A DNA stretch of 24,212 bases from a virus. A program made the translations under genes and the position numbers. The notes below the pieces were generated by a model. That model had not been told where the DNA came from. It saw nothing but the letters and a program-made list of their open reading frames with translations, and did no database searches. This document shows, piece after piece, positions 2,115 through 2,958 of this stretch (positions are counted from its first letter, which is position 1; the number at the start of each line of letters is the position of its first letter). The stretch covers positions 1 to 24,212 of the IMG/VR virus record IMGVR_UViG_3300032331_001275; one strand, given 5' to 3'.

Positions 2115-2504
2115 ATGGTCAATATGCCACTGGATTACGAGATTGACGGCTATTTGTGCGCAGCCGACGCGACGATAGACCAGATCCACCCGCGCAAGGA
2201 CATCTTGCTGGTTCGGCGCATCCCGGATGAGGAAGTGCTGGCCAGCGGGCTGGTCATCCCGGCCATGGCGCGAGACTCCAAGACTGGCGTTCGCATCGGC
2301 GAGGTACTGAAGTGCGGGCCGGGGGAGGAATACGACTGTGATTTGATGTTTGACGGTGCGCATCGAGTCGTTAACCTCATCCCCACCGAGTGTCAACCAG
2401 GTGACCGCGTGGCCTACATGCGCTGTCCCGACAACGACGTGAACATCGGCGGCGTCGATTGCGTTCTGTTGCGCGAGGAGCAGCACGTGCTGGCGATTTT
2501 GTGA
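2115..2504 (+). CDS. Phage-encoded GroES-like co-chaperonin
   Basis: The 129-aa product matches the Cpn10/GroES pattern. Residues about 25-35 (IHPRKDILLVRR) correspond to the N-terminal strand (RPLHDRVIVKR in E. coli GroES). EEVLASGLVIP (about 39-49) sits where the GroEL-binding mobile loop lies. TGVRIGEVLKCGPG matches the TRGEVLAVGNG strand, and CQPGDRVAYMR followed by VLLREEQHVLAIL matches the C-terminal half. An N-terminal extension of about 24 residues and a longer central loop are unusual. GroES caps GroEL, and P22 coat folding depends on GroEL/ES, so a phage version next to head genes fits coat or portal folding. ATG 2115 follows GGTGA at 4 nt; ATG 2124 is an alternative start. Its stop overlaps a promoter-like box at 2502. 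Confidence 0.8.
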   Translation: MVNMPLDYEIDGYLCAADATIDQIHPRKDILLVRRIPDEEVLASGLVIPAMARDSKTGVRIGEVLKCGPGEEYDCDLMFDGAHRVVNLIPTECQPGDRVAYMRCPDNDVNIGGVDCVLLREEQHVLAIL

Positions 2505-2510
2505 TACGAT
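2502..2510 (+). promoter_or_regulatory. Extended -10-like box TGATACGAT
   Basis: TGATACGAT has the extended -10 form TGnTAnnnT and overlaps the stop codon of the GroES-like gene. A near-identical box (TGATACGCT) occurs just before the portal gene at 2950-2958. No convincing -35 is visible, so either an extended -10 promoter or a shared regulatory motif is possible. Confidence 0.3.
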
Positions 2511-2548
2511 AGCCTCAGCGCTGTTCAATCCCTCAATCCGAGCCAGAG

Positions 2549-2573
2549 AGCCCCGTCGTGCAGCGGGGCTTTT
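2549..2573 (+). terminator. Rho-independent terminator after the GroES-like gene
   Basis: AGCCCCG (2549-2555) pairs perfectly with CGGGGCT (2564-2570) across an 8-nt loop, and the stem runs directly into a T-run (2570-2573). This closes the packaging/GroES-like unit, so the portal gene probably needs its own promoter downstream or read-through. Confidence 0.75.
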
Positions 2574-2578
2574 CTGCG

Positions 2579-2584
2579 TATAAT
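2579..2584 (+). promoter_or_regulatory. Perfect -10 hexamer TATAAT upstream of the structured RNA region
   Basis: TATAAT lies 6 bp after the terminator T-run and is preceded by TGCG. Initiation about 7 nt downstream would produce a transcript beginning near 2591, just before the foldable segment at 2598-2723. The -35 region at 16-18 bp spacing is poor, which lowers confidence. The surrounding 26 bp recur in diverged form at 2736-2762. Confidence 0.4.
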
Positions 2585-2597
2585 GGGCATGAATGGA

Positions 2598-2723
2598 GCT
2601 GTACCGGATGCGTCCCGGTGGAGGCGGTTAGGTGCTGGAAGGGCGTGCATAGCTCAGATACCGCTGCACGCAACAAAGACTTCCGGCATCACACATAGAA
2701 GCCCAGTACAGCCGACTTAACCG
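2598..2723 (+). ncRNA. Candidate structured RNA with three stacked stems and a possible pseudoknot
   Basis: Three nested helices can be read directly. P1 is 2625-2633 with 2715-2723 (9 bp, one G-U). P2 is 2634-2641 with 2680-2687 (8 bp, one G-U). P3 is 2643-2649 with 2665-2671 (7 Watson-Crick bp, 15-nt loop). P1 and P2 abut without a gap and P2 and P3 are 1 nt apart, so the 5' strand is almost continuously paired. In addition GCTGTAC (2598-2604) is complementary to GTACAGC (2706-2712), which would form a pseudoknot with P1. It competes for two bases with a local hairpin, ACCGG/CCGGT (2603-2607 with 2615-2619). A TATAAT box lies upstream. It could be a phage ncRNA, a leader/attenuator or a packaging RNA; no known class was recognised. 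Confidence 0.5.
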
Positions 2724-2735
2724 AAGGCGTTTGAC

Positions 2736-2762
2736 GGGGTTTTTGCGTTATGATGGGCGTGG
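2736..2762 (+). repeat. Second copy of the T-run/-10 element
   Basis: This stretch (GGGGTTTTTGCG, then TTATGATGGGCGTG) is a diverged copy of the one at 2565-2590 (GGGGCTTTTCTGCG, then TATAATGGGCATG), 171 bp apart. It carries TATGAT at 2749-2754 as a weaker -10 hexamer. The duplication suggests that the terminator-tail/promoter arrangement is a unit that occurs twice. Confidence 0.45.
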
Positions 2763-2881
2763 ACATAACAGCGGTGGGCCTGTCCAGGCGCGAAAAATGC
2801 AGCGCAGTAGCCAGAGAGACGAGGACGCCCGAAAGACCCGTAGGCCAACCAGCCGGTTACGCTCTAGACTCTGACACCACC

Positions 2882-2948
2882 AGCATGTCCAAATTTTATA
2901 CATTCTCCACTGACTCAAAAATCACGCTGTACAAAATTTAGACAGTCT
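2882..2948 (+). repeat. 20-bp imperfect inverted repeat upstream of the portal gene
   Basis: Arm 2882-2901 and arm 2929-2948 are complementary at 16 of 20 positions, including an uninterrupted AAATTTT/AAAATTT core, with a 27-bp spacer. The segment is markedly AT-rich against the GC-rich surroundings and ends 17 bp before the portal ATG. The geometry suits paired operator half-sites or a looped regulatory site. It lacks a T-run and does not look like a terminator. Confidence 0.5.
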
Positions 2949-2949
2949 G

Positions 2950-2958
2950 TGATACGCT
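2950..2958 (+). promoter_or_regulatory. Extended -10-like TGATACGCT just before the portal start
   Basis: TGATACGCT matches TGnTAnnnT and ends 7 nt before ATG 2966. Initiation from it would fall at or next to the start codon and give a leaderless portal mRNA. This is consistent with the absence of a Shine-Dalgarno sequence there. A good -35 is not visible. Confidence 0.3.

Follow-up and report, generated by a model that had tools for sequence, protein, structure and literature searches.

A portable pseudoknotted RNA module of phages and an altered copy of it in a probable small-RNA cargo insert upstream of a phage portal gene

The closest described counterparts of the element discussed here are structured RNAs of several kinds. 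In phage T4, two small stable RNAs, C and D (species 1 and 2, annotated in AF158101), are encoded in the tRNA cluster and their function is not known. GOLLD and ROOL are large structured RNAs of phages or prophages, which are partly located near tRNAs. Both are counted as ornate RNAs (PMC12286853). For hammerhead and twister ribozymes, natural examples exist in which a single fold is circularly permuted (PMC10085705). The T4 RNAs resemble the present module in being small RNAs of a phage tRNA cluster; however, a covariance model of the module (R1, built from 13 phage sequences with the window excluded) reaches at best 6.6 bits in the T4 tRNA region and finds nothing in the T4 genome, and none of the conserved blocks are shared. 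GOLLD and ROOL are much larger than the module and no Rfam match to either was found in any locus; the consensus cores of hammerhead and twister are absent from it, and Rfam gives no match to them. One member of the family is a domain within a phage tmRNA, but the others, including the copy in the window, stand alone and have neither tRNA-like ends nor a tag frame; similarly, a group I intron of a DNA polymerase gene has one member in its P6 region, as a P6 extension only, whereas the others have no intron core. Because no family in Rfam 15 matches the module as such and a full-text literature search found no description of it, the RNA class is rated as new, with the reservation that it may be described in other papers.

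The stretch of DNA analysed, called the window, is a viral sequence of 24,212 nt (IMG/VR virus record IMGVR_UViG_3300032331_001275). An initial annotation had proposed a structured RNA between its GroES-like and portal genes, at 2579-2745. Such an RNA is present between these genes, but the one that passes homology and covariation analysis lies at 2787-2875, outside the proposed coordinates. In the reading favoured here (with a probability of about 0.8), the region 2575-2880 is a lineage-specific small-RNA cargo insert, which holds an orphan segment and a member of a portable phage RNA module (Table 1). The cargo would have been inserted between a conserved terminator and the portal-operon control region and would comprise two pieces, the orphan segment and the module, flanked by one and the same promoter-like element.

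Table 1. Features between the GroES-like and portal genes of the window (all on the + strand)
Feature	Position	Strand	Basis or remark
Conserved upstream unit	2500..2574	+	Common to all five phages
Extended -10-like TGATACGAT over GroES stop	2502-2510	+	Followed by ~60 nt, then terminator
Hairpin-T terminator	2549-2573	+	Closing pair A-U in window, G-C in L005
Left copy of bracketing element, TGCGTATAATGGG	2575..2587	+	Pattern match
Orphan insertion with P2/P3 hairpin	2579..2743	+	Homologue not detectable
P4 pseudoknot arm	2598-2604/2706-2712	+	7 bp
Local hairpin of initial annotation	2603-2619	+	Present
P1 arm	2625-2633/2715-2723	+	9 bp, one G-U
Sole robust hairpin of orphan segment (P2 extended to 11 bp, P3 inside)	2631..2690	+	Pair probabilities ~1, MFE
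P2 arm	2634-2641/2680-2687	+	8 bp, one G-U
P3 arm	2643-2649/2665-2671	+	7 bp
Right copy of bracketing element, TGCGTTATGATGGG	2744..2757	+	Pattern match
Member of portable pseudoknotted phage RNA family, type II order	2787..2875	+	Models R1, R2
Block GAAAAA	2792-2797	+	Comparison with 15 phages
Pseudoknot strand b5, TGCAGC	2798-2803	+	Between GAAAAA and AGTA blocks
Block AGTA	2806-2809	+	Comparison with 15 phages
Helix a, CAGAG/CTCTG, 5/5 pairs	2812-2816/2869-2873	+	Covaries in family
Pseudoknot strand b3, GACGCC	2824-2829	+	Block comparison
Most conserved unpaired block, CGAAAGACCCGTA	2830-2842	+	Block comparison
Helix c, GGC/GCC, 3/3 pairs	2843-2845/2852-2854	+	Block comparison
Conserved block GGTTACGCTCTAGA	2855..2868	+	Counterpart of AGTAACGCTCTTAG of type I members, there 5' of core
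Putative portal-operon control region	2886..2958	+	Pattern matches
Operator-like sites, consensus GTNCAAAWTTTAGACA	2886-2902, 2928-2944	+	Two in window
Extended -10-like TGATACGCT	2950-2958	+	In putative portal-operon control region

Four close relatives from IMG/VR (L002-L005; portal 88-94% and terminase 91-95% identical) allow the insertion point to be located. In L002, L003, and L005 the terminator is followed directly by the portal control region and the orphan segment is missing; in L004 a different insert is found at the same point, and then a good terminator-like hairpin. The near-repeat TGCGT(T)ATRATGGG occurs twice in the window (0.00 expected), flanking the orphan segment on both sides, and L003 and L004 have a single copy apiece, located at the insertion point. 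Since the inserts of the relatives differ or are absent and this element marks the insertion point, the slot is one that accepts small noncoding cargo, and the orphan segment is one such piece, without homologues. Positions 3027-3087 of L004 match RF00005 with 26.6 bits (E 0.0013), short of the gathering score; in this degenerate tRNA-like element the acceptor stem is short and the anticodon loop nearly absent, while the T arm is perfect. Homology of the orphan segment to this tRNA-like insert was considered and rejected, as the best local score was reached by 53 of 1000 shuffles.

The unit upstream of the slot (2500-2574), conserved across all five phages, has a layout like that of a late promoter from which a short leader RNA is made. 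Downstream, the operator-like pattern has four matches (0.34 expected), all in the region of 2886-2958, and three GTNCAAAWTTTAGACA sites are present at the same place in L005 (5925-5970); there are none elsewhere in the window or in L005. In L002-L004 a different palindrome, TGTGTCAA..TTGACACA, is found at the operator-like position, as if the regulator had been swapped. The GroES-like protein of L003 carries an extra cysteine-rich C-terminal tail of ~50 residues, derived from an insertion (L003:5685-5835).

For the segment at 2579-2745 the roles of a portal-unit leader and, by analogy with phi29, of a packaging RNA had been raised. The packaging role finds no support, and that of a leader cannot be upheld as a conserved feature, because relatives that share the terminase and portal genes do not have the element. 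The likeness to the phi29 packaging RNA consists in a position close to packaging genes and nothing more; there is no Rfam pRNA match and the virus group is a different one. The Rfam search of the window, a check named in the initial annotation, returned no hit.

All pairing arms claimed for this segment are present in the sequence where they had been placed; whether they form is a different matter. The minimum free energy (MFE) of 2579-2745 is -56.6 kcal/mol (z = -1.32; 22 of 200 shuffles are as stable), and that of the narrower stretch 2590-2725 corresponds to z = -1.88 (7 of 200 shuffles), a value undercut by ~7% of all 135-nt windows on the + strand of the whole phage. The statement that so many complementary arms are unlikely by chance is therefore weak; a test for stacked nested helices gave P ~0.005, which has to be discounted because the statistic was chosen post hoc and one segment was picked from 24 kb. 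In the ensemble of 2590-2745, P2 and P3 pair with a probability of ~1, but P1 (0.0) and P4 (0.001) do not, and forcing P1-P3 to form yields -45.7 vs. -56.6 kcal/mol, a cost of ~11 kcal/mol. Formation of P1 and P4, and with them the proposed two-state switch, is thus not predicted, and the fold as such is not supported.

It could nevertheless be that the initial annotation was right in substance and that 2590-2725 is itself a functional regulatory RNA gene of the phage, which we consider rather unlikely. The segment does have the layout of a small transcription unit, with a TATAAT box and the bracketing near-repeat, it contains one strong hairpin with the z-score just given, and L004 carries other RNA cargo at the same slot. 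The TATAAT at 2579-2584 and the terminator upstream of it are visible by eye, but a consensus scan called neither, finding no sigma-70 -35/-10 pair and no terminator here; the 3' terminator of the segment is weak, with a stem that requires a loop of >30 nt. Homologues were absent in all searches, that is, in viral contigs (two 20-21-mers), genome contigs (19-mer), phages, and plasmids, so there is no covariation to appeal to, and a copy in a host genome or prophage, sought via TerL, was not found either. Further points against a regulatory RNA are that P1 and P4 are not predicted to form, that three of the four close relatives do without the segment, and that a 45-codon open reading frame also crosses it. 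This frame (2583-2720) was not accepted as a gene, having no Pfam match, and neither was one of 63 codons (2750-2941), likewise without a Pfam match and overlapping the RNA at 2787-2875. A search of the segment for tRNAs, with introns allowed and thresholds relaxed, gave nothing beyond an implausible candidate on the opposite strand.

The second piece of the cargo is of another kind. In a permissive search with the insert and its 3' side, 2791-2846 was found to be 77% identical over 56 nt to a Brevundimonas jumbo phage, in an unannotated gap of a tRNA cluster. With a shorter query, Klebsiella phage KP13-26 showed a weak intergenic match in its tRNA cluster (E 8), which alone proves nothing; that sequence has the same blocks, in rotated order. 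Used as a query, it retrieved 81 phage records, and further ones came from searches with other members. Members include RaK2, Erwinia and Klebsiella Vequintavirinae, T5-like Proteus and Klebsiella phages, the T4-like phage mogra of E. coli K-12, Rhizobium phage RHEph12, Pseudomonas phage Milchi, and Cellulophaga phages; the hosts are Klebsiella, Erwinia, Proteus, Escherichia, Rhizobium, Pseudomonas, Brevundimonas, and Cellulophaga, and the virus groups T4-like, T5-like, Vequintavirinae, jumbo, Rhizobium, and crAss-like. Each of 15 phage genomes has a single copy, and T4 has none. Matches in a fecal phage and in Gordonia, Salmonella, Listeria, and Bacillus were left unused, as they are short and lie inside or near coding sequence.

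The module comprises ~90-110 nt. A hairpin, d, exposes in its loop a strand, b5, which pairs with the downstream strand b3, so that helix b crosses helix d and a pseudoknot results; two further helices, a and c, complete the fold. The order of motifs is d5 - GAAwAA - b5 - nnAGTA - d3 - a5 - n(2-9) - b3 - CGAAAnACCCnnA - c5 / c3 - block - a3, where the block preceding a3 is AGTAACGCTCTTAG or GGTTGAAGCTnnTA; strongly conserved and unpaired are GAAwAA, nnAGTA, CGAAAnACCC, and ACGCTCTTAG or GAAGCTnnTAG. In type II members (Brevundimonas, Rhizobium, Cellulophaga, and the window) a loop joins c5 to c3 and a3 forms the 3' end; in type I members (most enterobacterial phages and Milchi) the RNA is closed by pairing of c5 with c3, and the core is preceded on its 5' side by the block and a3. 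The two types are circular permutations of one another.

An alignment of 13 sequences including the pseudoknot (A6) has 89.3% of its cells paired vs. 62.3% when shuffled, and double changes occur at 17 of the 19 pairs, in four helices of which one is a pseudoknot, although these counts overstate independence because rows inside the virus groups are related. The covariation score is 0.656 vs. 0.176 for shuffled alignments (reached by 0 of 500) and ≤0.124 when the alignment is slid. In A6 the type I rows were joined by hand, end to end, into the type II order, so the counts for helices a and c partly depend on this joining; a sequence-only model built from 5 natural type II members (R2) is independent of it. 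Members outside R1 obey the same pairing and score 44.2 (L126), 49.7 (L127), and 36.1 bits (L129); in L129, helix a was read by eye as TAAACTTATAC/GTATAAGTTTA, the script having misregistered it. A Bacteroides candidate (L128) with only 16.2 bits was left out.

In the window, R1 finds 2787-2875 with 49.6 bits (E 6.1e-9), the next best match reaching 10.5 bits, with the same outcome when filters are off, and R2 finds the same stretch with 38.2 bits (E 2.3e-11), all E-values being from a shortened calibration; the lead over the next window match is ~39 bits for R1 and ~34 bits for R2. The blocks that characterise the family (GAAwAA, AGTA, CGAAAnACCC, and ACGCTCT or GAAGCT) are found here, and all five conserved unpaired blocks are present together with helices a and c. 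Helix b, by comparison, has 3 of 6 pairs vs. 5 or 6 in the other 15 copies and is the only broken one among the 16; hairpin d has 2 of 3 pairs by eye and 1 of 2 in the register of the script. That the match is due to chance or convergence and the region plain noncoding filler is highly improbable: the broken pseudoknot helix would fit this, as would the MFE of 2746-2890, no better than that of shuffled sequence (z +0.84), although MFE folding is blind to pseudoknots, but two independent models with such E-values and leads, and the full set of blocks with helices a and c, speak against it. The window copy is taken here to belong to the family by descent, which is a statement about ancestry and not one about an intact fold. 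We regard it as altered and possibly decaying; since half of the pseudoknot helix is broken, it could be in the course of being lost. GGGCGT at 2755 and at 2641 is complementary to ACGCCC at 2825-2830, an alternative pairing that would alter the topology and may be due to chance. A further copy of the family was not found elsewhere in the contigs of the relatives (G001-G004). Within the window no tRNA was detected by ARAGORN or RF00005, including relaxed settings without introns, nor a tmRNA (tRNA-like ends with a tag frame), nor a group I intron (RF00028). We take GAAAGACCC to resemble 23S rRNA and CGCUCUUAGG E. coli tmRNA; such likenesses are often expected by chance and were not used.

The carriers of the module are diverse. 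In seven phages (L108, L115, L116, L118, L119, L123, L124) it lies within ~0-5 nt of a tRNA gene, and in L108, L118, and L119 it ends just ahead of the start of the next tRNA. The link is not universal, because 6 of the 16 copies (L117, L120, L121, L122, L126, L127) have no tRNA within their 300-nt flanks. In the crAss-like Cellulophaga phage phi14:2 (L129) the module is inside a tmRNA (ARAGORN, 92-561), and the enclosing Rfam tmRNA match reaches 46.0 bits, where the cut-off is 47; in Klebsiella phage VLCpiM5b a group I intron (L117:191-495, Rfam 69.8 bits) has the module as its extended P6. The Cellulophaga members are followed by a hairpin and a T run that, on inspection by eye, resemble a terminator.

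Some observations on these loci may be recorded apart. The tmRNA gene of phi14:2 (L129:92-563) is unannotated in the record, where two small hypothetical genes overlap it on the other strand; the intron of VLCpiM5b, which separates two DNA polymerase pieces, is likewise unannotated. Between tRNA-Leu and the module, KP13-26 has a further RNA that looks structured (L108:655-735), and Klebsiella phage FKP3 and Enterobacter phage FENT2 have it too. Jumbo phages of Brevundimonas and Caulobacter share a conserved noncoding stretch in their tRNA clusters, GTCTTCGGACGGGAAGGCCATA..GCCCACAAGGGC (L106:503-680; L111, L114), located upstream of the module or occurring without it and annotated as a hypothetical protein in CcrColossus.

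Functioning in such different carriers, the module would have to fold on its own, and it may act as a self-contained folded RNA. In tRNA operons it could be released through tRNA processing, and its placement suggests that it serves translation or the handling of tRNA or tmRNA during infection, one possibility being that it binds a conserved host factor. The main rival is that the module is a self-cleaving ribozyme which separates phage tRNA transcripts, the window copy being spare or decaying. The compact pseudoknotted fold, the many invariant unpaired bases, and the two circular permutations, as known for hammerhead and twister (PMC10085705), are in line with this, as is the close abutment to tRNAs in the seven phages. 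However, no Rfam ribozyme family matches, no single invariant junction outside the helices is recognisable as a cleavage site, and within the tmRNA of L129 or the intron of L117 cleavage would cut an RNA that needs to be whole. The position inside a tmRNA in particular disfavours simple self-cleavage, and we regard the ribozyme as quite unlikely. The broader proposal, for which the odds seem to us evenly poised, is that an uncatalogued, autonomously folding module is a movable domain that spreads through Pseudomonadota and Bacteroidota phages. It would occur in two circularly permuted forms, be it alone, as a fusion to tRNAs, within a tmRNA, or within a group I intron, and would have one conserved function in the translation or tRNA economy of the infected cell, or else represent a new ribozyme class.

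An uncatalogued RNA with four covarying helices across many phage groups is a new class to be explained, and its placement in a tmRNA, in a group I intron, and flush with tRNAs makes its function directly testable in laboratory phages of E. coli. Short intergenic inserts of viruses, which are passed over by gene annotation, can hold such RNAs.
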